Below are positions 5,548-45,169 of a DNA stretch of 64,000 nucleotides, piece after piece. The first letter of the stretch is position 1. Each line of letters starts with the position of its first letter. The translations under genes were made by a program, and so were the position numbers. The notes beneath the pieces were generated by a model. The model was given only the letters and a program-made list of their open reading frames with translations. It was not told the origin of the DNA and ran no database searches. The stretch covers positions 3,782,001-3,846,000 of the forward strand of contig OX485803.1 in assembly GCA_950295325.1 (NCBI GenBank), read 5' to 3'. Origin of the DNA: Polytrichum commune. Its lineage: Eukaryota; Streptophyta; Polytrichopsida; Polytrichales; Polytrichaceae.

Positions 5548-5850
5548 CTGGTGATGTTAGCGAACAACTAGGCTACCTTCGTTGGCAGGACAGAGAATTT
5601 ACTGTACTTGATTGAGCCGGTTAACATTTTCTGCTAAGAGTACATAGTTAAAGTCAATTTACCACTTACATTGCTTCCACTCTGGTTTTGGCCAATGGAT
5701 GAACTCATCAATCATCCATGGCAATATTTGTTCACATCTTCATAAGAAGTGTCATCCGGAAAGTTACCATAGTGACATAAAATACCATATGACACTGAAT
5801 ATCGTATTTCATGTACTTAGGGTGAAGTCTAATGGATGATCCCTTAACTT

Positions 5851-5942
5851 TGGGGTTGTTTACATCATGGACCATGAAGTTGTCCCAAGGACCTGTAAAA
5901 GTTTTGATTGGTTGTTGAACTCGTTCTGGGATCACTTTGAGT
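5851..5942 (+). repeat. End fragment of GTTTACACCATGG repeat family
   Basis: The fragment begins GGGGTTGTTTACATCATGG and continues with ACCATGAAGTTGTCCCAAGG and TGGTTGTTGAACTCGTTC. This is the left end of the family seen complete at 44588-45162. Only about 90 bp remain. Confidence 0.6.
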
Positions 5943-8545: not shown

Positions 8546-8784
8546 TATGCTCTTCTCTTTATGCCCCATGCTCTCATAAAGAAAGCTCAAAATTATAACC
8601 TTCTCCCATTGTCCTTGCAAAAATCAATGCTTGAATGTCCACAACATGCTTCACACGCATGTACAAAAACATGCATAATCCTAAGAGAAAAATAAGTCTC
8701 CTCCTCCTTTCCTTCATTGCAACCACGCTTGCTAAAATTCAAGGCGAAAACAAACAAAAACAAGAAGATAACAAAAGTGAAAAG

Positions 8785-9040
8785 GAATGAAGACAAGACA
8801 AGACAAGAGAATGGTCAAACTTGAATTTTTTTCGAAACTTGAATTTTTGGGCATACATCAAAGAAATCAACACATTCATTTTTTGGTGCATGGTCATTCC
8901 TCTTGGTCCACAGCTGGCTTACACCTAGTGAGGGGCCCAGAGGCTTTGTAAATTGATTTTTTAAGAAATCAGACCATGGAAGTTGGACCATCAAGTCACA
9001 CCATGGAAAAAGGCCACCTTCCATGGTCCATGGTGTAATC
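8785..9040 (+). repeat. GTTTACACCATGG repeat family, 3' half
   Basis: It carries the AAGACAAGACAAGACAAGAG box, GGTCATTCCTCTTGGTCCAC, CACCTAGTGAGGGGCCC and the terminal CCATGGTCCATGGTGTAA. All are shared in the same order with 42710-43490 and, inverted, with 44588-45000. It is non-coding. Confidence 0.65.
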
Positions 9041-14090: not shown

Positions 14091-14102
14091 TCCAGGATGA
14101 CA
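14091..14102. repeat. LINE target-site duplication, 3' side
   Basis: TCCAGGATGACA lies immediately next to the A/G-rich run that is the T-rich 3' tail of the minus-strand LINE. It is identical over 12 bp to 29381-29392. Confidence 0.85.
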
Positions 14103-14136
14103 AAGAAAAAAGAAAAAAGAAAATAAAAAATAACGC
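14103..14136 (-). other. T/C-rich 3' tail of the LINE
   Basis: Read on the sense strand the element ends in a run of T interrupted by C and A (two TTTTTTC units near the end) directly before the TSD. There is no poly(A) tail. Other LINE clades also end in short simple repeats rather than poly(A), but a T-rich tail is uncommon. Confidence 0.65.
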
Positions 14137-14172
14137 CAGTATTATATACCGGCATGAATGCGAGCCCGTTAA

Positions 14173-14211
14173 CCCTGTATTAATCACGGTGTCCCGTGAT
14201 GTAATATAGGG
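14173..14211 (-). promoter_or_regulatory. 3'-UTR hairpin of the LINE
   Basis: The arms CCCTGTATTA + ATCACGG and CCGTGAT + G + TAATATAGGG form a ~17-bp stem with one mismatch, a one-base bulge and a 4-base loop. An alternative outer pairing, ATAACGCC (14130-14137) with GGCGTTAT (14210-14217), would close a larger multi-branch fold. LINE reverse transcriptases often recognise a 3' hairpin, so this is a plausible template-recognition element. Confidence 0.6.
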
Positions 14212-14269
14212 CGTTATGCCTCCTTTGGGAGGTGGGCTCTTGTTTCCATATTATATTAGTTAGTTTTAG

Positions 14270-14956
14270 TTAGGGTGGGGGGACCGGGGTTTGTTTGTTA
14301 TCAAGTTTTCTTTTGTTTAGAACTAGGTATGTGAGGTATTTAATGGCGTTTTCGTGTATTTTCTTCATGAGGGATTTAATGTTGTGCTTTGGGATTTTAA
14401 GTTTGGTTAGTTTTTCTATGGAATGTTCGTGTATAGCTCCTCTTACTCCGGCTGTGATGGTAATTAGGGGGTTGACTTTCCAGCCGATGTTTTGTATGTT
14501 GTTGATTAGTGGATCGTATTTGGTGTGTTTGTGGGTGAGGGCTCCGTCCGGGAATCTGTCATGGCAGTATGTGAACTCAATAAATTGGATTGTGTGGTTG
14601 GGAGAGGGTAGGATGGGGGTGGGTGATTGGTTTTGGGCTCCTATAATGCACAATATGTCGGGTTTTAGCTGGGCTGGGCATTGGCATTTCGTTTGTGAGC
14701 ATGTGCATGCTAAGAGCCAGTCTGGTACTGTGTGATCTTGTGGTTGATTGTTGTGGTTACCCGCATTGACCAATGTAAAAAACCTTGTGTTGTTGTTGGC
14801 TTGGAGTGTTTGGGTGATCAGGTGGACTGCCTTGTTGTGTCTTGCAATTCTTAGTCCTTTTAAGTACGGGTGTTCGCATGTGGATAGTAGGTGGGGCCAT
14901 GTGTCTCTGTCATTTCTTTGGCATAGTGTGCAGTTAGGGTTCTGGAATTGGAGGGG
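14270..14956 (-). pseudogene. LINE ORF2 C-terminus: CCHC finger and restriction-like endonuclease
   Basis: The frame is the same as the rest of ORF2 but is cut off from it by a TAG at 14957-14959. It opens with a C-x2-C-x9-H-x4-C finger (14932-14876) followed by a RIARHN peptide. Then comes a PD-(D/E)xK-like core: KPD (Asp codon 14659-14657), IEFTY (Glu codon 14578-14576) and KHTKY (Lys codons at 14530 and 14521), followed by GWKVNPLI. The same order (CCHC, RHN, KPD, acidic residue, KxxKY) defines the endonuclease of R2-type LINEs, which nicks the target site. Here it sits in an element that also has an APE domain. It ends at TAA 14272-14270. The nuclease assignment is by motif and spacing and needs a profile search. 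Confidence 0.7.
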
Positions 14957-16707
14957 CTAGAATATATGTTTTCTATGGTTGCTCATATATTGTGCATATC
15001 TAAATTTTAGAGTTTGGGCAATTTGTGTGTCGGGGACCTGTTTGCTTTTCCAAAAGTGGTTGGAAAGTTTTTGGTTGATTTGTTTGTTTGATATCCATTT
15101 GTCGACGTAAGGGTATTTTTGGATGGCTAATGCGCATTCACGGTTTTCGTGCTCTTTAGTTATAAATGTGCGAAGGTTTCGGATTGCTCCGTCGTGTGTG
15201 CCAGTTGGGCAACTTGCTAACCAATATGGGGTTGTGCGGGCTATGTGTATCCGTGGTGTGGTGTCGGGTTTGTCTTTAAGTGTTCCCATATTTGCTAGTG
15301 TATCTGCCATTTCATTGCCACTAATGCCTGTGTGCGCTCGTACCTTATGTATGTGGACCATGTGTTGGGTCCAATATATTTGGTTGATAATGGCTGCGAT
15401 AAGAAGTTTGTCCGGGTGGTGGTGTTGGGATGTTGGGTGTTGTATATGGTTATTAATTAAGTATATGCTATTGAGGCTGTCTGTAAATATATGGGTGTCT
15501 CTTTGGGTGATTTGTATGGTTTTGATGGCTATGAGAATTGCATTTAGTTCGGCTCTTAAGATGTTTTGGTATCCGGGTAATCTTTCGGATATTTGGGTGT
15601 TGTTGTTGGAGCTATATACTCCCGAGCCTGCGGTATTGCCCACTATTTGTCCCTCGGAGTTTTTGGATGGTGGGATGAATGATCCATTTGTGTATATGCA
15701 CGCTTGCGGGTCGTATTTAAGGGGGTGGATGTGGTGATATGTGAGGGGTAGGGGTGTGGTGGTGGTGTTGGGGGAGGGGGGGATTATTACGTGGGGGGTG
15801 TTTTGCCATTTGTTGGAGAATTTAACGTTATAGTGTGCATGGGTGGGTTGTATGTGGTGTGTTTCTATATGTGTGGTGGTTAATCTTTTTAGTATGTTTT
15901 GTAATTCTTGTGCGGACTTTGGGTTTGGTGTTATTGTTGTTTGGTTATGTATGCAGATGATGGACGTAAGTGATGGTTCAATGTATTGATAATATTTGGG
16001 CCATTCTGGTGTGGGGTTATATTGGATGCTATGTGGTGGGATGGTTACTATTGTGTGTATGTATGGGTGGTTGTTGAGTGGTATTTTTTGTGGTGTCCAA
16101 TCGGTGTGATTGATTATTAGTATGGTAATGGAGTTTGTGTCTTCTTTGGCTGCCATTCTAGCCCAATGTATGGCCTCGACGGTTGTGTTATGGTCAGTGG
16201 GGAATGCTAGGCCTATGCCATTCCATTTAGAGGAGTGGGCATGTCCTAGTGAGCCAAATATTATGTCTCGGGTGTGTGGTGAGTTGTATTGTGTGAGTTG
16301 GGTAGGACATGTGAGTGGGGATGAGTAGTAGGAGTGTGTAATGTTAAATGTTTCTATGAGGAGTTTAGTTATATCCGGGTGTAGTGTATGGTGTTGGTTT
16401 TGGGGTAGGATGGTTTTTGGCTTTTTCTTAGGTAGTATGGATATGTATCTTTGCATGAGCCATATTATCTCAATCTCAAAGTCTTGTGGGGGCGGTTGTA
16501 GGAAGTTGGTTATGTGCGGTTGGTTGTTATGGTTAAATTGGTTCCATAGCCAATGTAATCGTTCCGTGGTGATTGTGGCTATGTATTTACCATTTTGGTC
16601 ATATATGTTGGATTCAAGGTTGTGTATTTGTATGGTGGGTTTATTACTAAGGATGTCTTTGTCCGGGTTGCATTCTTGTATGTTGGTGTGTAGATTGGTG
16701 ATATTGA
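14957..16707 (-). pseudogene. LINE ORF2 segment: unassigned domain and RNase H
   Basis: The frame is open from the poly-C tract at 16708-16720 to TAG 14957. About 250 residues of an unassigned domain (FGSLGHAHSSKWNGIG, EAIHWARMAA, EWPKYYQYIEPS) precede an RNase H domain. Counting from the ATG at 16456, the RNase H core residues are Asn257 (YTNGS, where YTDGS is expected), Glu303 (LRAELNA), Asp326 (FTDSLNS), His375 and Asp385 (GNEMAD). The first catalytic Asp is therefore replaced by Asn (codon 15688-15686), which should abolish or cripple RNase H cleavage. RNase H removes template RNA during target-primed reverse transcription. The segment is continuous in frame with the RT and APE parts. Confidence 0.85.
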
Positions 16708-17308
16708 GGGGGGGGGGGGGCGTATGTATTTTTTGTCTTTTGTTTGTGTGTGAGTGGTGTGGGTGGCGTATTTTTGAATGGCTAGTTGTTCCGTTGTTTT
16801 GTTATGAAATTGTGTGATGCGTAGTAAGTTATGGTCTAGTAGGATGTTGTCGGGGTGTAGGAGGTCCGTCTCCTTTCGCCATTGTAGTGTGGGTCCTTGT
16901 GGGTTTTGCCATTGACATAGGTATTGTTTTGTGATGGCTTGTGCTCCCCATTTGTCTTTTCTTGTGGAGGTTTTGTCTTTGATTATGGCGTGGATTGCCC
17001 GTCCGAGGGTGTGTTGGGGGAGGGGGGGGGGGGGGTGTTATGTTTGTGGGTGTTTGTTGTGGTAGGTGGGTGTGGTTTAAGTGTTGTGTGGATGTTGGTG
17101 TCGGTGGGAATATTGTGGAAGCGTGTTGGAGTGCCTCTTTGATGGTTTTGGTGATGTGGTTATAGGTGGCCCGAAATTCTTCGGGGGTTAGAATGGCCGT
17201 GTTTTCTTTGTTTTGAATTTGCATTATTGTTGTTATTCCGTGTGTGTAGAGTTTGTCGAGGTATTTATGTGATTTTATTTTGGAGGTGTCGGCGAGGTTG
17301 GTGTATGT
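16708..17308 (-). pseudogene. LINE ORF2 linker with two homopolymer frameshifts
   Basis: After the RT segment (TAA at 17311-17309) the same frame continues to the tract of 14 C's (sense strand; 17022-17035). Between that tract and a second one of 13 C's (16708-16720) the open frame is the next one (peptides GRAIHAIIKDK and KDKWGAQAITKQYL). After the second tract the original frame resumes. The two shifts cancel. Homopolymer slippage in the genome or in the assembly explains both equally well. The encoded linker is proline-rich at both tracts and has no recognised domain. Confidence 0.75.
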
Positions 17309-19624
17309 TTATTGGGATATCCACATTTGTTCTAGTGGGGTTTTTATGAGGGGGAATGCGCGATTTGTTGTGGTGACGTGGATCTCATATTCTCTTTTCA
17401 AGAGGAAGAGAGTTCTTGCTATGGGGGATCTAATGCATGCTTGTTGTTTTAGTTTGGGGAGGTGCAATGATCCTCCGTATTTGGCTACTATATATTTAGT
17501 TAGACCTTGGTAGATGAGGCCTAGTTGTCCGGGGTCGTTTAAGGCTTGGATGAGTTGTTGACCGATGCAATGTATGTAGTCCGGTAGGAGGGAGGTTACG
17601 TCTATGCCGAAGTTTTCGTGTGGGAGGTGTGTTAGTATGTTGGCCGTGCTTTTAGGTATTTTACATATTTCTTTGGTTAGTCTTCCTATGACTTTGTCTA
17701 GCTTTATTATGTCGGGTTTGGAGAAGGGGACTGCGTAGTATGCATAGGCTATGCGAGGTTTTATGACCGTGTTAAGGATGTTGATTTTTTGTTTAAGACT
17801 AGCTGGGGAGAGGGTTAGCAATTTGCATTGTTGTTTGGCCCTTTGGAGTGTAGTTTCTTTTTGAATGTTCCATTTTAGAGATGGTATTAGTTGGATACCT
17901 AGGTATGCGTATGGTTCATTTTGTGTGAGGGTGGGAAAGGTTTTTGTTTTGTAGGTAATATTTTGGGATTGTATGTAGGCTTTGAATGTGTTGGGTTTAA
18001 GTTTCGATTGGTTGGGGCACCCAGTAATGGCGCATTTGGAGAGGTTTAGGTCCATGTGGGACCATTCGGCAAATTTTTGTAACTTGAGTATTTGTGGTTG
18101 TATGTGATTTATGTTGTCGGATATGATTGCGAGGTCATCCGCGTAGGCTGTAGTGGTGCACGTGGAGGTGGATGTACTGAAGTGGTATCCCATGTCATCT
18201 TTTTCTAGCCATCTTAGTAGTGGTTCCAGGAAAATGATGAAGAGGTAAGGGCTAAGTGTATCCCCTTGGATGGTGCCTCGACTAATTGTTACTGAGGGTG
18301 TGGTACCAAATTGATTGCCTGTGAATGAGGTTGTTGAGTGTGTGTATATGTTTCCGACTAATTCAGCTGCGTCTGAGGGATAACCCATGTCTTCCATTAG
18401 GGCTAGTAATCTTGCGTGGTCAATGTACCCAAAAGCGTTTCGAAAGTCAATGTAGGTGAGGTAAATATCTTTGTTGGTGAGTTTGGCGTCTTCCAGGGCT
18501 GCAATTATCATTTGTAATTGTCTTGAGGTGTTTCGTTGTGGCCGGAAGCCCTCTTGACTGAAGTGTATTATTTTATGTTTTTCCCCGTATCTTGTGAGTA
18601 GGGCCGTTAGGGTACTAGTATATAGTTTATATATGATATTAGCTAGTGCTATCGGTCGATAATTGGCGAGGTGAATAGGGTCGTCTTTCTTGTGGAGTAG
18701 GATGGTTTTGCTATGTTTCCATTGGGTTGGGATTTCCCTCTGTTTGTAACAATGTTGGAAAAATAGAAAAATTAAGTTTTGGCATTTTGGTGGTAGTGCT
18801 TTAAAGATATCATTGGGTATGTTATCGGGGCCGGGAGCTTTACCTTTTGTTAATCTCTTGACGTAAGAGTCGTATATTGCTCGGGAAAATTGGGTGCTTA
18901 TGGATGTAGTATGGTGGCCTCTTTTGTCAAGTATTATTCCATTGTGTGTGTGCCAAGGGTATTTGCGGATTGCGCATTGACATGTGTTTGGGTGGTCTAT
19001 AGGGTCGTTACATAGTGGTGCTTGTCTTTGGAAGGATGCTTGTTGTGTGTAGTATATTTCATTTGCTATATCTTGGGGTTTGGTTAGGATGTCTCCTTGG
19101 GCATTTTGTATGCAGTCTAGGGAACTTTCGATGATTGGGTAGAATATATTTTTGTGTATTGTTTTGGGTTTGATGTTGAGCAGTGCTCGGTATTTTGTGA
19201 TGGCATTTTTGCAGTTGGTTGTGGTTTGCTTGACTATGATTTTGTGTGCTTCGATTTTTGCTTTTCGTCCTATGTTGGCTATTTCTTCTATCCATAGTGC
19301 TTGCTCTGGGGGGTTCATAGGGAGTGGGGGGACAGTTAGATTGTTAATTAGTGTTAGGGATTGTGTGTCGGGGTGGTTTTGGAGGTTGGTATGTGGAAGT
19401 TGGCATGCGGCCCGAATGGCCTTGCGAGTTCCGTGGTATATTTTGAGATGATGTTTCCATAATTTTTGTTGTTTTCTACGTATGAATCCTCTTTGGATTT
19501 TGGCTCTAGTGGTAAGTGGCGGTGTGGGTGTTGTCATGCAAGTTTTTTCTATGCATTGACTTAGGGAGTTTATGATGTTTTGGAAGTCATTTTGGGCGTC
19601 TTGCCATTGTGTTTGTATGAGTCT
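17309..19624 (-). pseudogene. LINE ORF2 segment: reverse transcriptase
   Basis: The frame is open from just after TAA 19627-19625 to TAA 17311-17309. The 742-residue stretch from ATG 19537 carries all RT blocks: KGKAPGPDNIPND (~231-243), HKKDDPIHLANYRPIAL, YIDFRNAFGYIDH (catalytic Asp364), SRGTIQGDTLSPYLF (~419-433), AYADDLA with catalytic Asp467-Asp468, and YLGIQL (~545-550). A thumb region follows. It would copy the element RNA into DNA at the nicked target. Catalytic residues are intact. Both bounding stops are CAA-TAA contexts, explainable as CAA to TAA transitions in a former continuous ORF2. It lies directly downstream of the APE segment in the same frame. Confidence 0.92.
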
Positions 19625-20530
19625 TTATTGTTGTAGAGTTTTAGTGAGGTTTGTTATCTCTAGGTTTTGTTCTTCTAAGAATGTGGTTTGGAGGTTTGTG
19701 GGAGGTATGGGATATATGATGCGGGGGTTGGTGGGGGTCGTTTTGGTCTCTTTAAGAACTATGCTATTAGTGGGTAGTTGGAGTTGTACCGGGTAGTGAT
19801 CGGAATTTTGGTTGAGGTTTGTTATTGTGTAACTTTGTAATGTGTTTTTGTTTGAGTAAAAACCGTCTATGTGGCTAGTTGATGTGTAGTTGTGACCTCC
19901 TTGTCTTGTGAATTTTTCTAGGTTGTTTATCGGGTGAAGTCCCAGGGTACTTGTAAAGTGGGCCCATTCGTAGTCATCTTGGTTAGGAGGGGAGTTTATA
20001 CCGTTGGAGGATCTTCTTTTGAGTAATATGTCCCGGTTGAAGTCTCCCGCTAGGATGATGTAGTGATTTTGGTAATTGTGGGTGATTCTTAGGAATTCAT
20101 TTTGTATGTCTTGTATGAGGTGTACGTCGTAAGGGTGTGATGGCATATACATATTAATGAGGAGTATTGGTGTGATAGGTTTGTTGTTGATAATGATGGC
20201 TTGTAAGTAGTGTGATATTGGGCTAGGGGTGGGTATTTTGGTGATGTTTTCATTTGTATATATGGTTTTAGGTATCATTGCGAGTATGCCTCCTCGTGTC
20301 ATAGTGGGTCCGGCGAACCGATTTTGGTTGGTGGTTAGGTTGTTAGAGTTGTTATATATGATTTTATAATTTTGTAGTTTTCTGTCTATGTATGTTGTGG
20401 ATTTTAGTTTTTGTAGTTTAGTTTCTTGTATGAGTATGATGTGGGGGGTTGTGGGTAGGGTTTGTGTAAGTTCTTGGATGCCTGGTAGACTAGAGCTTAT
20501 ACATCCTGTGTTCCATGTGATTATTTTCAA
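19625..20530 (-). pseudogene. LINE ORF2 segment: APE-type endonuclease
   Basis: About 300 residues of an apurinic-endonuclease-like domain: IITWNTGC with catalytic-site Asn7, LIQETKL (Glu36), INMYMPSH, ILAGDFNRD (Asp163, Asn165), HIDGFY (Asp222) and NSDHYPVQ (Asp244, His245). All key residues of the LINE APE family are present. The domain nicks target DNA to prime reverse transcription. No ATG begins this frame. A plausible ORF2 start is ATG 20615-20613, which needs one frameshift to reach the domain (see finding). The segment ends at TAA 19627-19625, in frame with the RT. Confidence 0.9.
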
Positions 20531-20623
20531 GGTCGTTGTTTGGTGGTTGTATGTGTTCGTGGTTGCGGGCGGCGCGGGGTTGGTGTTTGTGTCTTGTGTG
20601 TGTGGGTAGTATCATTTTATTGT

Positions 20624-21328
20624 TTAGGTACACTTAGTGAGTTCTTCAAGGATTTTCCGGGGTATGTGAGGTAGTTCCATTTTCAAGTCTTGTAGGTTTG
20701 TTGGTTTACCTTTAGCAATGTTGTCATTAATACGGGAGTATGCTTGTGTTATTGTGGGTATTTGTGTGTTTGGGGTCGGGATGGTGATGTGGCGTGCGTT
20801 TAAGTTTGTGTTAGTCGGTGTGTTGTGTAGTCTTTGGAGAATTGTTAGGCATCTTGGGTCTAGGTCATTGGTCATTAGTTGGTTGCAGATGTCTGGGTTG
20901 GGACTATAGACTATTATGAATGTGTATAGTTGGTGATGGGTTGGGTATTCTGAGAGGGATGAACTATGTCGGCGTAGGTGGGGTAGGTCTTGGTTATGTG
21001 GGTGGGTATGAGTTTGAATAATGTAAGGGTCGAATAGTCCCTCAAGGTGGGCATATTGGTTTTTGAGTGTGATTGTGTTATGTATGAAGTATTGTTTTTG
21101 TCTTTGGGTGAATTCTATGGGGAGGTTGTACAAAATGGGTGGGGAGGGGCCCGGGTTGGTTTCAATGTCTCCACTAAGGGTTATGAGTGTGGTATTATTC
21201 CATATGTAATATTTTATGACTTTAGCTTTAGGGGTTTTTAGATGTGTGTGTGTGAGGTAGAGGATGTTGCTTATGTGTAAGGTAGGTTGGATGGGTGGGA
21301 TGGGGGGTGGTGGGTTTGTTTGGGGCAT
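20624..21328 (-). CDS. LINE ORF with 2A-like ribosome-skipping motif
   Basis: A 234-residue frame starts at ATG 21328 and is in the same frame as ORF2. After ~50 residues, including a hydrophobic stretch (VIKYYIWNNTTLITLSG), comes DIETNPGP (21169-21146), a perfect match to the 2A consensus D-(V/I)-E-x-N-P-G-P. Known 2A peptides make the ribosome skip the Gly-Pro bond, giving two proteins from one frame. 2A motifs are documented at the N-terminus of several APE-type LINE proteins. The remaining 173 residues are not recognised. The frame ends at TAA 20626-20624 followed by an in-frame TGA (20614-20612). It may be the N-terminal part of ORF2 or a separate ORF. The start 22 nt after the upstream ORF stop supports a real unit. 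Confidence 0.75.
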   Translation of the reverse strand: MPQTNPPPPIPPIQPTLHISNILYLTHTHLKTPKAKVIKYYIWNNTTLITLSGDIETNPGPSPPILYNLPIEFTQRQKQYFIHNTITLKNQYAHLEGLFDPYIIQTHTHPHNQDLPHLRRHSSSLSEYPTHHQLYTFIIVYSPNPDICNQLMTNDLDPRCLTILQRLHNTPTNTNLNARHITIPTPNTQIPTITQAYSRINDNIAKGKPTNLQDLKMELPHIPRKILEELTKCT

Positions 21329-21350
21329 GTGGTGGGTGGTGTGTTGTGTG

Positions 21351-21794
21351 TTATGTGTTATGTAAGTTGTTGTGGAGTGGGGAGGTGATTGAGGATTTTT
21401 GGTTAAGTTGGTATAGGAGGTGTGATTGTTGTGTGTGATGTTGTTGTTGGTTTTGATATGGTCGGGTTAGTTTAATTTGGTGTGTTAGTGGGGGGTTGTC
21501 ATAGGCTATGATTGTGGTGAGGGTGATAGTAAGAAGGATGATTATGGTTATGGTGTGGTGAGTGTTGTGTGTTGGGGGGGGATTAGGTGTGTGTTCGTAT
21601 TTGTGTTGGGGGTGGTTGTTTGTTGTCTTTGTTATTTTTGAGATGTGATTGTTGTAATTTCGTTTTGGGACACATGTATTTTGTAGAGAAGATGAGTTGT
21701 ATGGGAGAGTGGCATTTTTATTTATGAGTAAATAGAGGCTACATAGGTTGTGTATGATATGCGTCCATGCATATGCTAGTGCCTTGCTATTCAT
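21351..21794 (-). CDS. LINE small ORF, putative membrane protein
   Basis: The 147-residue frame has an ATG that overlaps the ORF1 stop in ATGAATAG (21794-21787), the arrangement expected for stop-restart translation. A hydrophobic run (ITIIILLTITLTTIIAY, ~residues 83-99) could be a membrane segment. The rest is Asn/Gln/His/Thr-rich, as expected from the G-poor strand. No family is recognised. The main evidence that it is a gene is the overlap and its tight packing between ORF1 and the 2A ORF. Composition-driven chance openness is the alternative. Confidence 0.45.
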   Translation of the reverse strand: MNSKALAYAWTHIIHNLCSLYLLINKNATLPYNSSSLQNTCVPKRNYNNHISKITKTTNNHPQHKYEHTPNPPPTHNTHHTITIIILLTITLTTIIAYDNPPLTHQIKLTRPYQNQQQHHTQQSHLLYQLNQKSSITSPLHNNLHNT

Positions 21795-22991
21795 GAAGAT
21801 GTTGGTGGTCTTTGTGGAGGCTTGGTGAGGGGCTCCGGTAGTACGCGCCTGAGAATCCCGGTGGTACTAGGTGTGTGTTGGGCTCTCCCACATGAGCGTT
21901 AACCATGGATGAGCTTGGTGCGTGGGGGGGCTCCGGTGTGGTGGCGGCGAGCGTTTGCATGATGTTGTGTATGCGATTGTTGGATTGTTGAAATTCCATC
22001 GCCATGGCACTCATGATGTTGTGGATGTTTGTGGCGTGGGTCTTGAGCGTGTCCGTGGAGGCTTCGATTCTCTTGTCCGTGTTGAGGTTGATATTGTTGG
22101 TGAGCGATGTGAGTTTGTCGTCAACCGTTTCGACCAACTCCTTAATGGTTTTGGTGAAGAATTTCTCCGATACAAGGGGCGAGGAGGCGGCGGTGTTGTT
22201 CATGGCTTGAATTTTTTGTGCAATGACTTCACGGACGGGGGTGTGTGCTTGTCGTATGGCCATTTGGTTAGGCTCGGTCCCGTCGATGCTCCTTTTGTGG
22301 GGGATGAAGTCCACGCGCCTCCCTAGGATGTAGGTGGACTTGCGTAGCCACTCCGTGTAGACCGCCGCATTGAGACATTGAATGTGGCACCACCCGGCTT
22401 GGCGGTCGTCTTCTTGATTAGATTTGTGCCCGTAGGTGATGTCGGTAATGTTCTCCTCTCTAAAGAGCCGCTTCAATGCCTTGGTGATGGTGGATTGTGA
22501 CTCACGTTGGGGTAAATTGTTAGCTACAAGAGTGGTGCTAATTCTAAGCTCCGATAGATTGCCTATATCCTTGTCCTTAGTGATGCTCACCTTTAGTTTT
22601 TCGGAGTGGTAGGTTAGGCCATTGGTGATGATGTCCTCCCGAGCCTCTTCGGTAGTGAGGGTGAGGAAGGCGAAGTCTTTCTCCACATCCGCTTTAGTGA
22701 GCGATAAAATTTCTACCTCACGGCCTTCGTAGTAGGATTCGCTCATGAGGGTGCGGAGGATATCTATGGCCGTGCTTCCTCGGAGGGTTGCACCTTTGAG
22801 GTGGAGCCGCATGTTCTTGGCCTTTGTGATGAGTTCGAAGCCCTTCTCCACCTTGCCAATGACTCGTTCACCGTCTCCCATTGTCATGACGAAGGCGCGT
22901 TCTCCTCGGAGAAGAGCTAGTCCGTCTAGCTTTGGGTTTTGTAGGTGGAGTTTGATGAACCCCGCCCAATTCCGAGTGACCGTATTTATGC
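21787..22991 (-). CDS. LINE ORF1, 3' exon (RRM-like, coiled-coil)
   Basis: The frame is open from the proposed acceptor (AG at 22993-22992) to TAG 21789-21787; an internal ATG lies at 22887. It begins GINTVTRNWAGFIKLHL, continues through RAFVMTMGDGERVIGKVEKG and KNMRLHLKGATL, then a block FAFLTLTTEEAREDIITNG and a second RRM-like block STTLVANNLPQRES ... EDDRQAGWCHIQCLNA ... LGRRVDFIPHKRSIDG. A helical, coiled-coil-prone stretch (FFTKTIKELVETVDDKL ... NNRIHNIM) and a Pro/Ser-rich tail follow. This layout (RRM-like folds plus coiled coil) is typical of LINE ORF1 RNA-binding chaperones. Base composition is far more even than in ORF2. It is probably joined to the 5' exon at 24793. Confidence 0.75.
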
Positions 22992-24792
22992 CTATATCAA
23001 TTGGGTTAGAGTATGTGTTACTGTGAGGCCAAATCCACCACCCTTAAGCGTCCTAGTCCGGGTGATGGCTTTGCGAGTCACATGTATCTCTTACAACTTG
23101 AACCATGTGCAAAGTAATTTTTATGTCCAAAAGAACACATATTGTTTCCACTCATTGTACTTTATTAATGTTAGCCTCTTGGCTTGTGGTAGAGTTGGCT
23201 TTCTCAAGCGTCCAACCCGTGGCTTTAGCCACACATGCCCTTAAGGACATTCCCCTCGCTCGTTTAATCTTCACTTCCTTTTTGTTGCCATTGCAAGAAT
23301 CTTCCACATTCTCCATTAATAATGCAAGTGAGTTATTTTGACCAAGAGGTGCAAGTGTTGAAAAACACTTTTCTCAATGGTTAAACACACTCATACAAAC
23401 CCACACGTGGCACCAACTAGCCTAAATGAATATAACTTCTTAGCTACCACTAAAGATGGCCTAATGTGATCTAGTTTTTTATGTGCTAATACTTACTACT
23501 TGAGCTAGCCTTGCTAACCCCTAGATAGTCTAAATGAATTGTTGCTAGGCAACCCAGCTGCCTTCTGATTCCAGTCCCGGGTGTGGTCTAACCTCCAAGC
23601 CCAACTGCCTTTGATTCCAGTCCCGGGTGGTCTAACCTCCAAGCCCAGCTGCCTTCTGATTACGGTCGCGGTGTGGCCTAACTTACCAAGCCCAGCTGCC
23701 TTCTGATTACAGTCGCGGTGTGGCCTAACTTACCAAGCCCAGCTGCCTTCTGATTACAGTCGCGGTGTGGCCTAACTTACCAAGCCCAGCTGCCTTCTGA
23801 TTACAGTCGCGGTGTGGCCTAACTTACCGAGCCCAACTGCCTTCTGATTACAGTCGCGGTGTGGCCTAACTTACCGAGCCCAGCTGCCTTCTGTTCCAGT
23901 CCCGGGTGGTCTAACTTACCAAGCCCAGCTGCCTTTGATTCCAGTCGCGGTGTGGCCTAACTTACCGAGCCCAGCTGCCTTCTGTTCCAGTCCCGGGTGG
24001 TCTAACCTCCAAGCCTAGTTGCCTTCTGATTTCAGTATATGAAGTTATAATACCCGAATGGGTATCCCAACCACTAGTTGCACCCTAATCCAAACTCTCT
24101 CCTTCCCTAATCACATGTTTTCTAAGTTTTTCTTCTTCTTTCTTTTTCCTTGCTCCTAAATAATAAACTAATCTAACACACTAATTCCACTAACTACTAA
24201 CTAATCAACACGTGCAACTTTAAACTCTAAGAGCTCCCTCAATTGGGTGGCATTGAGAGAGAGAGCTTAACTAATTAACTTCACTAAGAACTAATGTCTC
24301 ACACACGTGGCTCAAGCTCTTTAAGAGCTTGCTCTCTTGAGAGCGCTTGATGGAGAGAGAGGAAAATGAGAGAGAAACCACCTTAAGTAGCAAAGAGGGA
24401 GAGAGGGAGAGAGGGAGAGAGAGGTGAGGATAGGGTGAGAGGATTAGCACCTCCAATCACAATCCCTTAACCTTCACCTTCAAAGTAGGGACTAATCCCC
24501 TTCCACCAAGCTTCCTTCTTCCTAAACTACCAAGGTGGATCCAAAAGTGGGCATTTAACCCGCGGAGCTCACCTTGCTTCACCTTACCCCCTACTCACAA
24601 TATCAAGGCATACTCTTATTGAATTCAACCTTGAAATAATCACACAACACATTCTAAAGCCTAAACTTAAATCCAAACCACACTTCACTCTTTTTATGTT
24701 TTGTGAATAATCATAACACATCAAAGTCAAACTAAAATTGGTTTCGAAGAGTTAATCACCACATGTGGGCACCATTTTGGGCTCACAGTTAC
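22992..24792 (-). other. Candidate spliceosomal intron within LINE ORF1 (1801 nt)
   Basis: The donor is CCTAG|GTAACT (first intron base 24792). The acceptor is TTGATATAG|GC (last intron base 22992), with a consensus plant branch site CTCTAAC about 20 nt before it. Both sides are phase 1, and joining them gives codon GGC (Gly) and an uninterrupted frame. The upstream frame otherwise hits a stop at 24752, and the downstream frame hits a stop just above the acceptor (about 23046). The joined sequence bridges one RRM-like fold, with helix RREVKTACLERL before the junction and strand NWAGFIKLHL after. The intron is A+T-richer than the exons and contains the 47-bp tandem array. Confidence 0.7.
23553..24035 (-). 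repeat. 47-bp tandem array inside the LINE intron
   Basis: Ten full units of 44-47 bp and one partial unit, with starts at 23553, 23600, 23644, 23691, 23738, 23785, 23832, 23879, 23924, 23970 and 24014. Two variants alternate: one with CCAGTCCCGGGTGGTCTAAC, one with ACAGTCGCGGTGTGGCCTAA. On the sense (minus) strand seven units carry GGTAAGTTAG, a strong 5' splice-site match. Units are directly abutting with no spacers. Confidence 0.92.
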
Positions 24793-25612
24793 CTAGGAGT
24801 ATGTTCATGAGGCGTAGCCTCTCCAAGCATGCGGTTTTGACTTCCCTTCGGTTGAGCGATTTGAAGTTCCTGTCAAATCTTATAGTAACATGGAATCCTT
24901 CGGTGAGGCCCGTGTCTTGAGAGGTTCTCTCGTACTTTGGAATTTGCGTAAAATGAAGATGTTGTCCGGGTACCGCATCCGGGCGTTCAGATGGGTAAAG
25001 GACTTGCTTGGTTCGCGGGAAGGCACGCCGAATTGTTTTGAATTCGTGAATTTCGGAGGCGGGTGTACCAATGGCTTGGAATTCCTCATTCGTTCGCTTC
25101 TCCGATAGCTCTTTCTTGCCTCGTTGTATTGAGAGGGCTTCGTGCATGTGGAATCCTAGCCACATTTGTCCGATCATGTCAATGCCTAGTGTGGCTCCTC
25201 GTTTTGATCTTGTGCTCGATGTTGGTGGTGTGGCCTTACTTGGGAGTGGAGGTGTAGATGTCGCCGTATAGTCGTCGGCCTTTCTCCTTTTGGTGTTTTG
25301 GCTCTCCGAGGCATCGACAATCCGTGGGTTACGGTATTGTAGTGTTGGTGGTGTGCTATCGGCAATGCGGATAGACCTTTGTGGTGTTTCGTGTGTGGCT
25401 TGGATGGAGTGTCTCTCCGATGAAATTTGTAGAGAGCTCCCTCCTCTCTCCGGTGACACGTCCTCGAGTTGGGCGTCCATGTCCAAATCCTCCGCGGCGT
25501 CTATGTCATGTGAATGGGGCGGCTGAGAGGACTTGAGTTGTGGGGGCGGCTGGGCTTGGATTTGATGTCGGAAGGTCATGTAGTGGCCTTCCATCTCATC
25601 CGACGGCTGCAT
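24793..25612 (-). CDS. LINE ORF1, 5' exon
   Basis: From ATG 25612 (HSMQPSDEMEG context) the frame runs to the proposed donor at 24793. It contains an acidic stretch (DAAEDLDMDAQLEDVSPE), a basic nuclear-localisation-like TKRRK, a helical region (MIGQMWLGFHMHEAL ... KKELSEKRTNEEFQA) and, at the end, FHVTIRFDRNF followed by NRREVKTACLERLRLM, which looks like strand 1 and helix 1 of an RRM-like fold completed by the 3' exon. With the splice, ORF1 would be 674 residues. The start is uncertain: the frame stays open upstream to 26911. Without splicing the frame ends at TAA 24754-24752, 14 codons after the donor. Confidence 0.65.
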
Positions 25613-26911
25613 GCTGTGAAATGAAGCGGTATCGTGGGAGCCGGCCTTCAAAGCCTGAGCGATTCCCTGCAATTCGCAGTTAATTGTTTCGGTGAATTGG
25701 CGGGTCCAGGGGCTTCGGTGTTGGAATTTCGTGTGCTGTGCAGTTCGGGGTCTGTGCTGGGGGTGTGTGTTTGCTGGTTGTTGCTGAATTGTCTTGGGGT
25801 GGGTCGGGGGGGGGGGGCTTCTGTGCTCGTTGGTGTTGGTTTTTCCTTGCTGTGTGCTGCTGTTGAGTCTGTATGGGATCCACCAGTGAGTATGTATGCA
25901 AGAATTTGTGGGCCTGTTGTGGGATGAGGGTGTAGGAATGAGTTTGGGACTTACCTTGTTTTTGCGGCTGGGGCTGTTGGCTGCGATGGCAGCGAGTGTT
26001 GGGTAATGTTGCTTGCGATGGTGTGCTGCAGTGTGGTGTCTGATTCGGCAATTGCTGGTGCGGCTAACCAGGGTGTTTGTATGCGCAGTGTGGTGGCGGT
26101 GGGTGAGCGTCTGGCTGGGCAGTTCTTGGGTGGGCGCTCCCGGTTGGTGTGGTGGATGACGGCTGCGATTGGTTGGTGGGCAATTCGGTGGAGGGTTGGT
26201 GGTGGTGAGAGTGATCAGCTGGCAGCTTGGAGGAGGGCTTGTGCTGGTGCGGATGTGAACAGTCGGCTGGTATTTTGGAGGCGGGTTTGTGCTGATGTGG
26301 GTGCGAGCGGTCGGCTGGTGGTTCGGAGGAGGACTTGTGCTGGTGCAGTGGTCGGTGCGGGGCTGCTCCAATCGCTGTAGTGCGTCTGATGTTGGAGCGT
26401 GAAATGTGAGATGGTCTTGTGCTAGAAGTTGAGAGCTGGTGGTGTGGGGTGAGAGTGCTGGAATCGTCTCTGTGGTGGAGTGCTGAGGGGAGTAGATAGA
26501 GAGTGTGGTGAGAGATGGGAGTATGGAGTGGCAGTCAGGTGCTGCTATGGTGGTGTGACTTGGAAGGTGGTGGGGGGAGGAGGGGGCTGCGAGTGGGAGT
26601 ATAAGGAAAGTGTCCTGCTGTGTGCTAAGTGTGTGTAGTGAGGAGATGGTGTTTTGGGAGGTGTGATTGAGTGTCTTAAGTAGGGCGTTGTGGGTGTAAT
26701 TTTGGTTGTGTGGGTGTGTGCATGCAGCGACTTCTGTCAGTTGTCCTCGGTGTATCCATGTGTGTCGCGCACCTCTCCATGAGGAGTGCCCAAACCACCA
26801 TGGGCACAAGGGGGACCCCGGAGTGACACCCGGGACTTGTGGCGCCATTGGTGAGAGGGCCCAAGTGATCCTAGTGTGGATGAGGGCCCGGGCGTTGGGA
26901 ACGCCTCCCAC
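25613..26911 (-). other. Open Pro/Thr/His-rich extension upstream of ORF1
   Basis: The ORF1 frame remains open for another ~430 codons, reading Pro-, Thr-, His- and Ser-rich low-complexity peptide. The sense strand here is very poor in G, which removes TAG and TGA stops by composition alone, so openness is weak evidence of coding. A second intron-like unit with matching phase 0 is present: donor AACAAG|GTAAGT (intron from 25954) and acceptor GAATTGCAG|GG (to 25667), 288 nt. I consider this region more likely 5' leader than protein. Confidence 0.35.
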
Positions 26912-27521
26912 CCACGGAGACTAGGAGGCACAAGGGTAAGGCCATGAGCTATGCGTAGCTCATGGCGTGATGTTTCTAGAATGCTCAAGAACACCTCAAT
27001 CGGAGTTATGGCCATTTGAGTGGGGCGCTGTCCCGGGACAGCGCCCTGGTACAGCAGTGCCTGGGAGGGATTCCCGGGACTGCCAAGGTTCAAACAGGCA
27101 TAACTTCCTCAAGACTTGCTTGAATGGAGCAAGTGAGGAGTCCATCGGCATCTACGTGAAGCGTAGATGAGGATGGAGTGGTTGGTTGTTATGATCAGAC
27201 ATCATACAAGGAAGTTATGATGGTCTGAAGCTGCTGGGGGGTTCTAGGCCCAGCAGCTAAAGGAAAATGTCCACTTGGCCCCAACTCTTGGTAGAGAGAC
27301 AAGAGGTTGGTTGACGGTGGGGTAGGGGCCCCGCGTGAAGTCCTAGAGGCTTATATGGGTGAGGTGGTGTGGCCTCACCCACCCGAGGCCGAACGGCAAG
27401 GCCTCCATGGGCTTTGGCCTATTGTGAGGCCATAGTTGCCTAGTATGCTTCGGGTTGTTGTAGTGTTGCTCCGGCAACGCGATGATCAACATAGGATTGG
27501 ACTTCCATGGATGGAAGTCCA
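26891..27521 (-). promoter_or_regulatory. Hairpin-rich module in the LINE 5' region
   Basis: Perfect or near-perfect inverted repeats follow one another. 26891-26905 (GGCGTT/AACGCC). 26941-26966 (11-bp arms GCCATGAGCTA, loop TGCG). 27023-27046 (24-bp palindrome with half-site GGGCGCTGTCCC). 27149-27169 (CATCTACG arms). 27229-27258 (10-bp arms AGCTGCTGGG). 27357-27380 (GGGTGAGG arms). 27498-27521 (11-bp arms TGGACTTCCAT). G is not depleted here, unlike the flanks. The module could be a structured leader (IRES or packaging-like) or an embedded foreign element. No known ribozyme core was recognised. Confidence 0.55.
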
Positions 27522-27648
27522 CATTGGGGAAATGGGTTACCGATTAAGGGGTGAGTCCCGAAAGCAAAGTAGGAGGGTTGGTTCCCTCCTATGAACTATT
27601 GGTCCGGGGTAAGAGGAGCTATCCATTAGCATGGCGGAATGCGAAGGG

Positions 27649-28461
27649 TTAGCGCTCGTAACCTTTGATAGAAACGAAAATTGGCAAGATTGTTAAGGGA
27701 CCTAGCAAGGGTTGCGACAATGTGGGCGGTTGGGTTTTTTGGGGGTGTTTTGGGAGGAGTGTGTGCTTAGTATGGGTGTGTGTGAGCTGGGGGGTTGGTT
27801 TTTGGGTAGGTTCAGGTTGGCTTTTGATGGTTGGGTGTGATCGGGTGTTTTTGTGGGAGGGTAGCCAAGTGGGGATCGGCGTTCCTTGTTTTGCTTTTGG
27901 CGTTCTCATCTTGGCTGGTGTGGGGTGTCTGTATGTTTTCTTGGTGTGTCTTGTTATTTTTGTGTTGTGGTTGTCAGTGTAGGGTGCAGGTGTCTGTTGG
28001 AGTTTCGAGGGTGTGTGGGTGTGGTGAAGGTTAGGTGAAATTGTGAGTGGCCTGTGGTGTTGTTTGGGAGGGGCTTTAGTCGCCGTGTTGGGGTTCGCCG
28101 CAGGCTTCTGGCATTCATTTCGATCCAGCGCGTGGAGCAAGTAAGGTGTTGGGGGTGATTTGTGTGTTTGTGTGCGTTTGTGTCGGGGGTTTGGTTGTGT
28201 TGGTGGGTGATGTGTGTCTGTGGAGGGTTGGGGGAATTGTATGGGGGCGTATCTGTGGTCGGGTGCACCGTATGTAATTGCTGTGTGAGAGGGGATTTTT
28301 TGTGAGGTGTTTGTTATGTGGAGCTTGCTCTGGACGGGTGGAGGCGTGTTTACCTCGACGGGAGGCTTGGGAGCGGCCTTTGGTGTGGCTATGGCGCCGG
28401 TTGTGTGGAGGTATGTATGCAGGTATGGGTGCTGGGTGGTTGAAAGTTGCTGGGTTATCAT
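27649..28461 (-). other. Open G-poor stretch in LINE 5' region
   Basis: About 270 codons are open, rich in Pro, Thr, His, Lys and Gln with no domain. The sense strand almost lacks G, so long open frames are expected by chance. I do not call a protein. Confidence 0.3.
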
Positions 28462-28503
28462 TTCGCTTTGTGTGTATCTTGGTTTTGCGGCATTGTGTGG
28501 AGT

Positions 28504-29295
28504 TCAGCGTTTGTGTGGAGTTCGGCGTTTGCGTGGAGTTCGGCGTTCGTGTGGGTGTGTATTATCTGTCTGTATGGTATTTGTGTGGGTGTAATGCAAT
28601 GCGGCGTTGGTGGGAGAACAGAAGTCTGCTGAGTTAGGGTTTAGAGGTGTATGGTACCTCGTATTATGCTGGGGGGCGACAACTAACGTGGTGCCGGTTG
28701 AGGTGTGATGATCGGTGTTGGCTGGGCCTGTGATGGAGCGTTGGGATCTGGGTGTCGCCGTGGTGCTGGAGCGGGGGTTGCGTCGGTTGCGGTGGCTTCG
28801 AGTCCTCCTGTGGCGGCTTTCTTCTGTCATGCGGTGTTGTGGGCGGTCCTCGTGGTGTCGCCATCGGGAGTTGTGGGCGTTCGCTTGGAGCTTCCTCGGG
28901 TGTGCAGAAAGTAGATCTAGATCTGAGGGGAGTGAGGGTGAGCTAGTTAGGTTATGTCGGAGGTGATGGGTGGGTTTATTGGGTGGACAGACTTGTACAT
29001 TTGTTGTGTTGAGGATGCCGAAGCCAAGTGTGTATAACACTACTGTGATTAAGAATGGAAGCCGGCAATTTTGAGTATTCCGCTGTCTGTGTCTCCTTCT
29101 GTTGTGTGTGCTTGGTGTTGCGTTGGCTGCACTTGATGTTCGGCTACTCCCGATCTTAGGTGTGTTTGGAGATCTGCTTCTCCCGCTTCCTGCCTTTGAT
29201 TTCTTGATGTGTGCGCCTGAGAGGTGAGCGATGTAGTGAGTTGCTGTCGGCGTTGTGGTTCCGGTCCGAGGTTGCCTGGTTGCGGCCATCGCCAC
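28504..29295 (-). other. Open stretch near the LINE 5' end
   Basis: About 263 codons from an ATG ~85 nt inside the 5' boundary. The peptide is Arg/Ser/Thr/His-rich with one hydrophobic run (LPFLITVVLYTLGFGIL). At 28500-28550 the + strand carries tandem GTGTGGAGTTCGGCGTTTGC-like units. No family is recognised. It could be a leader peptide or untranslated leader. Confidence 0.3.
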
Positions 29296-29380
29296 GATCC
29301 TCTCCTCCTTGTCCGCATATGTTTCATCATAGGTTTGCTAATGCAACATGAGTAGTTTTGTTGTGTAGACTTAACTGATC

Positions 29381-29392
29381 TCCAGGATGACA
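29381..29392. repeat. LINE target-site duplication, 5' side
   Basis: TCCAGGATGACA, identical to 14091-14102, marks the right (5') end of the minus-strand LINE. Beyond it the sequence returns to ordinary A+T-rich flank. Confidence 0.85.
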
Positions 29393-29507
29393 CACTCTTG
29401 ACTTCCCTTATTGTTATGACACATGTTTAAAGCATAATTTGCAATCATTTGACACTGTCTTTGGTGTCAAAGTCCACCAGGTTTCCTACTTAGTGCGACC
29501 TAATTTA

Positions 29508-29894
29508 GGGCTTGTTTACACGAAAGTCGTTAGGCCATGGTTCTGGAGAATTTTTGATTTCTCATTTGGTTGAGAGTGTCACGGGCCCCTGCTTTAGGTT
29601 TACATGAGCGTAGTTTTGGATCACAACCCAAAAGATCTTCAGTGGATGGAAAATCTACGTGGACACCTGTATGGCAAGTACGGGTAATGTTGACCGGAAT
29701 TGTAGTAACTTTTTCTGGAACGGCTCGTGGAGATAAGTCTGACGTGATTTATGGCAGGCATTTCAGTTTTGCATTGAGGGCTTGTGACCTCCAAAAGACT
29801 TTGGGCTAGAGTCCATGAACTTCTCTAGGATCTCATCCAGAAAGTGACGTATCCTGATCATTTTAAAACTAGTGTCTTTGGTGTAAACATGCCC
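29508..29894. mobile_element. Short TIR element next to the LINE
   Basis: The left end AGGGCTTGTTTACACGAAAG and the right end, inverted, AGGGCATGTTTACACCAAAG differ at two of 20 positions. The 387-bp interior has no transposase. I could not read a clean TSD. The GTTTACAC core resembles the repeat family at 44588-45162, so they may be distant relatives. Confidence 0.55.
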
Positions 29895-37589: not shown

Positions 37590-38685
37590 AGACAAACCAC
37601 TAGTCCAAAAGTAATAAGGGATGCACTTGTGGGGACAAAAAAATCAAATGACAATAGTAAAAGCAATAACAATAACAACCACAACTTTGAATGTTTGTAT
37701 TCCATGTTTCCCAACCACCATATTTGTGTGGTTTTGCAATCTAGTGCACATCATCTTGGCTAATGAAAATTTCCAAAATCATGCATAAATCTAAATATAT
37801 TTAAATCCTAGTTCAAGCATGTTTTAGACACCATAATCCTTCTAGTGAATTTATAGGACATAAAAATATGAAGCTTCTTACATCTCTTGGAGCCAAACCA
37901 CGAGTCACTCAAACCTCACTTTGATCAAATAGTCCCAAACCATGAATTTATGAGAATTAACACAAAGTCATCCAAGTTTTCTTGATGCTCAAATTATCAT
38001 ACACAAAGAGTGGTGTCAGGCTTTCAAAAACAATCTTTCTAGCTTGTCCTACTAGGATGGGCCAGCGACGAAGGTTGAACAATTGCAGCAAGTGGACTGT
38101 ATACAGTGTGCCTGTGGCCCTCACTAATACTCCTCCACAAAATATTAATGGCCGCATGCCAAAGGCTCTTTGTAGGGCCAAAGGGCTTTAGCAAGCGCTC
38201 TTTGTAGGCAAGGCTTTAGCTCTCTCTCTTTGTTGGGCTTTGACCATGTCCTATACGGACGGTCGGGCGCAACTTGGTGATAATCAATAGAAGGCCGCCT
38301 ATTAATTAAAATTAATTAAGACAATGGCATAGAGTAATTCTTGTCGGAACTTTTAAATAATGGGAATCCGCTTTTGGATTGGGGATTAACGTGGACTCCT
38401 GATGAACCGAAGAGGGCCAAGCTAGCCTTGCATAAGCCGATCCAGGATTTAGGATAGCGGCTTTCATACAAATATCCTATTCTAGATCCTATGATTCTCT
38501 CAAAATTTGAGAAGTGGGAAATGGAGGTCCCAAAATTCTTCACCAACTTTCAAAATAGGCTCCGATCCATGATGAGCTAACGAGCTCTTAATCAAAAGTT
38601 TTCTAAAAGGAAGGACAAAATCCATGGTTTCGTCCCTCTTTTGGGGACTTCATAGAGAATTCTACTCTATATCACAATGGCTTGA
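37590..38685. other. Intergenic, no recognised gene
   Basis: A+T-rich sequence with short unrelated frames only. Tandem GGCTTTAGC/TCTTTGT words occur near 38165-38235. Confidence 0.4.
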
Positions 38686-38690
38686 ACTTA

Positions 38691-39073
38691 GGGGTTGTTT
38701 ACACCATGGACCATGAAGTAGTCTCAAGGCCCTGCAAGATATGTAATTGGTTGTTGAAGTCGTCTTGGGACCACTTCGATTTAGGGCCGGTATACACTAT
38801 GGACCATGAAGTTGTCCCAGGGCAATGTAAGATCGTTGATTGGTTGCTGAACTCGTCCCGGGACAACTTCGGTTTACACTAGAGAAAAAATGCTAGAGGG
38901 ACCATGGAGGTTGAGGTCTCCAAAATATAAAATTTTAAACCTAATAAATGCACTGACATGATCCAACGGGTTTTGCGTTGAGAGAGGCAAGAAAGGTGGT
39001 CTGGTAGGAAACGACAAGGGCCCATGACAAAGAAATGCCATTTTAATAAACTTTGAATGAATTTTTTTTGGGG
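38691..39073 (+). repeat. GTTTACACCATGG repeat family, 5' half with duplicated end
   Basis: The terminal block (GGGGTTGTTTACACCATGGA ... GGGACCACTTCG) is present twice in tandem (38691-38782 and 38787-38875). It is followed by the internal AGAGGGACCATGGAGGTTGA and ATCCAACGGGTTTTGCG boxes shared with 42995-43140 and 49080-49215. It stops just before the MITE at 39096. Confidence 0.65.
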
Positions 39074-39095
39074 ATTGTGTGTGATATGGCAGCTG

Positions 39096-42705: not shown

Positions 42706-42709
42706 GAAG

Positions 42710-42991
42710 TGAGGTCAAGACAAGACTATCGAAGCCAAGAGAATCGTCAAAGTTGACTTTTTTTAGATTTCCATTTTTTGTGCATATATTTAAAAAATCA
42801 ACACCTTCACTTTTTGCTCCATGGTCTTTCCTCTTGGTCCACATTCATTTTACACCTAGTAAGGGGCCCATGGCTCTCAAAACTAATTTTTTATGAAATT
42901 GAACCATAGAATTCAGATCATGAACTCGGACCATTAACAAACGCCATCTTCCATGGACCGAATTAATGCTCCATAGTGTAAACCCGCCTTT
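42710..42991 (+). repeat. GTTTACACCATGG repeat family, 3' half
   Basis: It carries GGTCTTTCCTCTTGGTCCAC and CACCTAGTAAGGGGCCC and ends CCATAGTGTAAACCCGCC. It directly abuts the next copy. Confidence 0.6.
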
Positions 42992-42994
42992 ATA

Positions 42995-45162: not shown

Positions 45163-45169
45163 CGGTACA

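Follow-up and report, generated by a model that had tools for sequence, protein, structure and literature searches.

How much of a 15.3-kb block of DNA lying between two copies of a 12-bp repeat belongs to a single retrotransposon? The question is raised by a 64,000-nucleotide stretch of the Polytrichum commune genome (the window; assembly GCA_950295325.1, contig OX485803.1, positions 3,782,001 to 3,846,000, or C1:3782001-3846000 in the numbering used here). An initial annotation had proposed that positions 14103-29380 are one long interspersed nuclear element (LINE) of about 15.3 kb, roughly twice the normal length, whose structured 5' region, intron, open reading frame 1 (ORF1), 2A ORF and ORF2 all arrived together. 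The element is encoded on the minus strand, with its 3' end at low coordinates and its 5' end at high coordinates. Genome searches covered the window's own assembly (407.8 Mb, 64 contigs). Very probably, the locus is a single LINE insertion produced by target-primed reverse transcription of a mosaic RNA and later hit by two long terminal repeat (LTR) elements.

A single LINE within a 12-bp target-site duplication

The repeat TCCAGGATGACA occurs at exactly two sites in the window, even with one mismatch allowed and on either strand, and both lie where the annotation had placed a target-site duplication (TSD; Table 1). With one mismatch allowed, shuffled sequence was expected to contain 0.40 matches, and two or more were reached in 7 of 100 shuffles. 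Across the window, 190 of 34,000 positions carry a 12-mer that is found again on that strand 4-30 kb further downstream, interspersed repeats included; because so few positions recur in this way, a chance recurrence at both predicted borders is unlikely, as had been argued. The low-coordinate copy directly abuts the T/C-rich tail (14103-14133). The predicted shift in composition is plain at this tail; at the 5' border it is also real but less sharp than described, with A/C-rich sequence from ~29314 and 66 bp of filler between there and the TSD. A long minus-strand LINE insertion spanning both borders is therefore well supported.

The tail can be taken as the 3' end of the family because a hairpin, a T-rich tail and visibly differing flanks recur in this order at 30 loci, one of which (L048) has a TTA repeat as its tail. 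A version of the hairpin is present at all 30, the window's own included, with up to seven differences allowed. The commonest change in its stem is from G-U to G-C. The annotation's suggested search for copies sharing both ends thus succeeded at the 3' end (30 of 30 loci) and failed at the 5' end at the sequence level, where the distal leader matches only itself.

Domain content places the element among LINEs. The reverse transcriptase (RT) also has PDB matches to R2 and LINE-1 proteins, the apurinic/apyrimidinic endonuclease (APE) domain lies upstream of it in the same frame apart from a stop, and one homologous protein (P0013) holds both domains together. TSDs of 12, 14 and 13 bp were recognised in three of the four copies examined (window, C2 and C3), and the two ends of the LINE share no direct repeat of at least 60 nt that could represent LTRs of its own. 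The best reading of the sequence is an APE-type, RNase H-bearing LINE with two ORFs and a 2A-like motif. Assignment to the R2-like LINEs was rejected on account of the APE domain, the two ORFs and the differing target flanks, although R2 gave the best PDB match for the RT.

Without the two later insertions and their extra TSD copies (2733 bp together), the LINE measures 12,545 bp, or 12,479 bp if the 66-bp filler is also left out. The single insertion therefore stands, at ~12.5 kb and not 15.3 kb. It is still unusually long, and there are two further TSD-flanked long copies. Copy C2 (RT at C2:44329143) carries a 14-bp TSD, TTATGTACTTTGGT, on both sides and spans 44320756-44334579 (13.8 kb), or ~13.1 kb net of a 708-bp insertion. 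Copy C3 (RT at C3:52254991), whose inside was read in part, measures ~13.0 kb end to end, with a 13-bp TSD (CTGACTATGGAGT) and 79 bp between the TSD and the start of the LINE.

Table 1. Features of the LINE locus, in window coordinates unless another sequence is named
Feature	Position	Strand	Basis or remark
TSD copy beside 3' tail	14091..14102		TCCAGGATGACA
T/C-rich terminal tail, 3'	14103..14133	-	T-rich tail then differing flanks in 30 loci (L039-L068)
3' hairpin GCCGGTAT-ATA-ATACTGGC, directly before tail	14135..14153	-	version in 30/30 loci
ORF2 C-terminal part with RNase H, stop-broken here	14270..16801	-	PF00075, E 4e-16
ORF2 linker, homopolymer runs at frameshift	16579..17308	-	ORF map; copy C2
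ORF2 reverse transcriptase	17309..19624	-	PF00078, E 4.1e-32
ORF2 APE-type endonuclease	19625..20611	-	PF14529, E 9.6e-8
ORF2 N-terminal part with 2A-like motif	20624..21466	-	ORF map; copy L005
Approximate mosaic breakpoint against copy C2	21000..21060	-	identity to second 2A module of C2: 95% below, 63-77% over the next four 60-bp bins above
2A-like motif GDIETNPGP	21146..21172	-	sequence motif
Short hydrophobic ORF overlapping ORF1 end, other frame	21351..21866	-	ORF map
ORF1 3' half	21787..23021	-	ORF map, homologues, alignment
GTAAC duplication	23017..23021, partner 24788-24792		
Nested LTR-type insertion, TG...CA, 1766 bp	23022..24787		dispersed family, TSD
ORF1 5' half, probable start codon 25612	24793..25612	-	continuous with 3' half in relatives
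Leader, proximal, A+C 0.73	25614..26757	-	not common to 39 other copies reported
CACAT duplication	26758..26762, partner 27720-27724		
Nested solo LTR, 957 bp	26763..27719	+	strand by primer-binding-site-like stretch of full-length relative
Leader, distal, A+C 0.74	27725..29314	-	single match (itself) in own genome
5' junction filler	29315..29380	-	65 bases 100% identical to C3:49906550-49906614
TSD copy, 5' side	29381..29392		TCCAGGATGACA
Tandem 2A modules of copy C2	L070:2254-3099 (C2:44326854-44327699)		

Both ORFs have many relatives. With 60 of 2905 candidates scored, the RT gave at least 61 matches in the genome, counting that of the window itself. Among proteins it gave at least 293 relatives (8000 candidates scored); nearly all of the 120 listed are unnamed or "hypothetical protein", and a distant one among them, at 43% identity with 38% of the query covered, is source-labelled Haematococcus lacustris. 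No relative was confirmed in viral and prokaryote contig collections, searched with one query protein. Stops and frameshifts interrupt ORF2 in the window copy, the frameshifts near homopolymer runs; at locus L005 the 2A-bearing frame runs on into the endonuclease. Perhaps the 2A-like motif separates the ORF2 product by ribosome skipping. ORF1 has 155 homologues at E <= 0.001 (120 listed), and a search with its 5' half found 12 proteins, 10 of them also in that list. For ORF1, no domain above the Pfam cut-off was found in the member tabulated, no credible family otherwise and no PDB match.

Apparent mosaic structure and non-homologous 5' leaders

Identity to other copies changes abruptly along the element. 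From ~21.03 kb to the ends of the loci, the window copy is 94-98% identical per 300-bp bin to copy C2 (L003), copy C3 (L002) and a second copy on C2 (L004), and the 3' ends of these copies (L044-L046) are 98% identical to its own. In the 3' half of ORF1 the three fall to 75-78%, and at the ORF1 start C2 and C3 stand at 73-75%. With the second 2A module of C2 as reference, identity switches between ~21060 and 21000, some 30-50 codons past the 2A-like motif. The nearest relatives of ORF1 are different copies: C2:37483470 at 87%, C7:663896 and C4:52991000 at 83%, and C6:25748253 and C4:7286055 at 82%. Where ORF1 starts, C5:34095899 and C6:2693066 come closest, both at 80% (40 of 106 candidates scored). 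Because these differ from the nearest copies over the ORF1 3' half, more than one joint is possible. The element thus looks like a mosaic, in which the 3' part of a recently active subfamily was joined to an older, different 5' part.

An alternative without recombination is that the 5' half simply evolves faster, leaving ORF1 at 75% identity where the 3' end is at 97%. Faster divergence of the 5' end and ORF1 is common among LINEs, and identity to C2 is indeed uneven in 60-bp bins, at 65-93% within ORF1 and mostly 47-80% between ORF1 and the breakpoint; rates that vary along the element could account for part of the switch. A gradient of this kind sits poorly with the fall from 95% to 70% from one 60-bp bin to the next at the second 2A module of C2, and with the existence of copies nearer in ORF1 (82-87%) than those nearest in ORF2. 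We consider it improbable as the whole explanation, and the mosaic is preferred.

The leader upstream of ORF1 differs from copy to copy. A/C-rich leaders measure 2.7 kb in the window and ~3.0 kb in C2, and the parts read of C3 and of a fourth copy, C4 (first 300-510 bp), are T-poor and then A/C-rich, with the ORF1 match ~2.6 kb further on. All four copies begin near ATGGC. The C3 and C4 leaders are alike (80% over 350 bp). Apart from 70% identity where ORF1 starts, part of the nested LTR and short stretches no better than chance, the leaders of the window, C2 and C3/C4 do not match one another. None of the 39 further copies reported, with 40 of 106 candidates scored, matches the proximal leader (25.62-26.76 kb).

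This lack of shared sequence is what favours a LINE that stops near the ORF1 start (~25.6 kb), with 25.6-29.3 kb being host DNA or another insertion and the 12-bp repeat a coincidence: neither 25.62-26.76 nor 27.7-29.3 kb is common to any other copy reported. The position of the repeat, at the outer border and abutting the tail, speaks against such a coincidence. So does composition, since A+C is 0.73-0.74 in the leader and 0.715 in ORF2, as against 0.445-0.524 in the 2-kb flanks. Moreover, the TSD of C2 encloses a leader of ~3 kb and similar composition, and that of C3 encloses ~2.6 kb upstream of the ORF1 match (first 300 bp read). We therefore regard a LINE ending near the ORF1 start as very unlikely and retain the leader as part of the element, the distal portion being assigned to it by the TSD, by composition and by analogy with C2.

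The 5' junctions differ as well. Of the window's 66-bp filler, 65 bp (29315-29379) equal the inside of a dispersed repeat and are 84-92% identical to the other places listed. The 79-bp filler of C3 matches one place elsewhere, over 41 bp at 93%, and C2 has no evident filler, with 10 nt between the TSD and ATGGC. Such fillers are compatible with template jumping, or with end joining that captured other sequence. At C2:8292826-8294576 the repeat matched by the window's filler also forms a tandem array of ~242-bp units.

A more speculative proposal is that the family has an exchangeable ~3-kb A/C-rich 5' module, which opens with an ATGGC start codon no more than ~26 nt from the start of the element and whose possible product is a small basic protein containing a single membrane segment ("ORF0"). 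Modules and the ORF1-2A block would then be swapped between lineages by template switching, a successful ORF2 and 3' end gaining new leaders. The near-5' frames of the window, C2 and C4 each contain a hydrophobic segment that 2, 4 and 4 of 200 shuffles reach. Pairwise protein similarity of these frames is that of shuffled sequence (84, 104 and 96 of 200 shuffles reach the score), the comparison of C3 with C4 gave no purifying signal (dN/dS 0.67; 5, 10 and 7 differences by codon position over 98 codons), and in C2 a stop precedes the hydrophobic segment. On this evidence we consider the proposal doubtful.

Two nested insertions in place of an intron and a structured leader

The stretch described as a structured 5' region proved to be a solo LTR, separate from the LINE. 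It is 957 bp long, has TGTCGC...GCGACA ends and is flanked by CACAT on each side. A search with 24793-28200 returned at least 47 matches besides the window, all lying within 26763-27719 or overshooting it by 12 bases or fewer, and at least five same-strand pairs of the LTR lie 6.0-6.2 kb apart (40 of 4110 candidates scored for both). In the single pair inspected, the TSD is 5 bp long (TATGA), and TGGTATCAGAGCAGGGTTCC, just inside the LTR, resembles a tRNA-Met primer-binding site. TG...CA ends with some 5-bp match also fit 11 of 300 random boxes; the TSD alone is therefore weak, and it is its exact agreement with the borders of the family that counts. Rfam returned no match within the LINE, and at the 5' junction one hit no better than chance (E 1.9). 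Structured 5' RNA as part of the LINE was accordingly rejected.

The supposed intron is likewise an insertion of its own. It begins TGTGAG, ends CTCACA and has GTAAC on each side, and its family is represented by at least 71 matching pieces (40 of 2759 candidates scored) with members of 1568 to 1848 bp; the window's member contains an internal 47-bp tandem repeat. Both ends were found in 29 of 30 excised loci, the window's own included, and the 5-bp duplication is perfect in 25 of these 29, has one mismatch in three and three mismatches in one. Two of the loci (L015 and L016) share their flanks and may represent a single locus counted twice. Ends and TSDs point to an LTR-type element. ORF1 is uninterrupted at this point in 12 of 12 aligned relatives; three proteins (P0169, P0171 and P0241) end or depart further downstream in the alignment. 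A spliceosomal intron was therefore rejected.

That a 15.3-kb LINE was inserted whole, structured 5' region and true intron included, is scarcely credible: the outer TSD does enclose all parts, but both stretches belong to separate dispersed families with exact ends and 5-bp TSDs of their own, a GT-AG junction at the 1766-bp borders (read by hand) would not restore the ORF1 frame, and the relatives read as though the insertion and one copy of GTAAC were absent. Of the joint arrival originally proposed, the one spanning LINE holds, and the intron and structured region drop out as later additions. The annotation had itself named a separate insertion within 24-29 kb as evidence against it; two sub-stretches are of this kind, and nothing was found that shows it for the rest.

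A single target-primed insertion of a mosaic RNA, followed by two LTR-type insertions, thus remains the best explanation. Several observations weigh against it, besides the uneven identity described above. The distal leader matches no other copy, and the C2 leader was read whole but those of C3 and C4 for their first few hundred bases. Copy C4 shows a similar change in composition and no recognised TSD, its longest flank match being 9 bp and far off. For the 1766-bp family, no pair around an internal region and no full-length member was seen among the 40 of 2759 candidates scored. Finally, the joined flanks of the LINE gave no uninterrupted match, and hence no empty site, among 40 of 380 candidates scored in this genome.

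The following sequence of events would account for the locus. Transcription would begin a few nucleotides before ATGGC; ORF1 would yield a long protein without a recognised domain and ORF2 a 2A-EN-RT-RNase H protein (EN, endonuclease), perhaps separated at 2A. The endonuclease would nick the target, and target-primed reverse transcription would follow, with 12 bp duplicated. The RT may recognise the 3' hairpin and T/C-rich tail, prime there and copy ~12.5 kb, sometimes jumping template at or near the 5' end, which here would have left the 66-bp filler. The copied RNA would itself have been a mosaic of a young 3' part, from just downstream of 2A to the 3' end, and an older leader, ORF1 and 2A. 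After insertion, the 957-bp LTR would have entered the leader and the 1766-bp LTR-type element ORF1.

Some further features were recorded. A short hydrophobic ORF akin to that of the window occurs in C2 (L070), and one follows ORF1 in P0155. The window copy has one 2A-like module; C2 has two in tandem, spaced ~113 aa within a single open frame. The 708-bp insertion of C2 (L069:3345-4052) lies in the leader just before ORF1, has inverted ends (GGGGGGTGCAC...GTGCACCCCCC) and is probably a DNA transposon or miniature inverted-repeat transposable element. Outside the LINE, the window contains no stop-to-stop ORF of 150 aa or more. The right flank of the LINE (29507-29692) is part of a dispersed repeat found at 80-85% identity in at least 38 other places (40 of 380 candidates scored). 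Diverged direct and inverted repeat families lie at 5712-5937, 8620-9029, 38683-39074, 42562-43429 and 44614-45169, and Rfam identifies a tRNA gene at 56114-56185 (+ strand, 36.4 bits).

Relation to known retrotransposons

The nested elements resemble the solo LTRs of LTR retrotransposons in their TG...CA ends and 5-bp TSDs, and the 957-bp family also occurs in pairs 6.0-6.2 kb apart. They are ordinary in all but their location within a LINE, where a reading of a single locus can mistake nested LTR insertions for an intron and a structured leader.

Three TSD-flanked copies in one assembly place this LINE family at 12.5-13.1 kb net of recognised insertions. Mammalian L1 reaches about half this length, lacks both RNase H and 2A, and ends in poly(A). 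The non-homologous leaders and the apparent mosaic joint near 2A make exchange of 5' modules directly testable outside mammals.

2A-like sequences are known in non-LTR retrotransposons, with the motif given as D[V/I]ExNPGP (PMC4981915). APE-type LINEs with 2A (trypanosome L1Tc, sea-urchin and other metazoan elements) share the 2A-like motif, the APE domain and the RT with the present family. Unlike them, this family combines its great length with leaders that are non-homologous between copies, a long ORF1 without a recognised domain and a T/C-rich tail. The tandem motifs of C2, GDIHTNPGP and GDIQTNPGP, lack the E of the published consensus.

In human L1 chimeric insertions with other RNAs, foreign sequence beside the LINE is reported to arrive with it (PMC13174262). 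The fillers here are 66 and 79 bp; that of the window matches the inside of a dispersed repeat, a match that does not by itself show an RNA source. Mouse L1 offers another parallel, with mosaic elements, non-homologous 5' untranslated regions in co-existing lineages and young 3' ends on older 5' parts (PMC3600994). The present family appears to share all three traits with it: mosaicism, non-homologous 5' regions and a young 3' end joined to an older 5' part.

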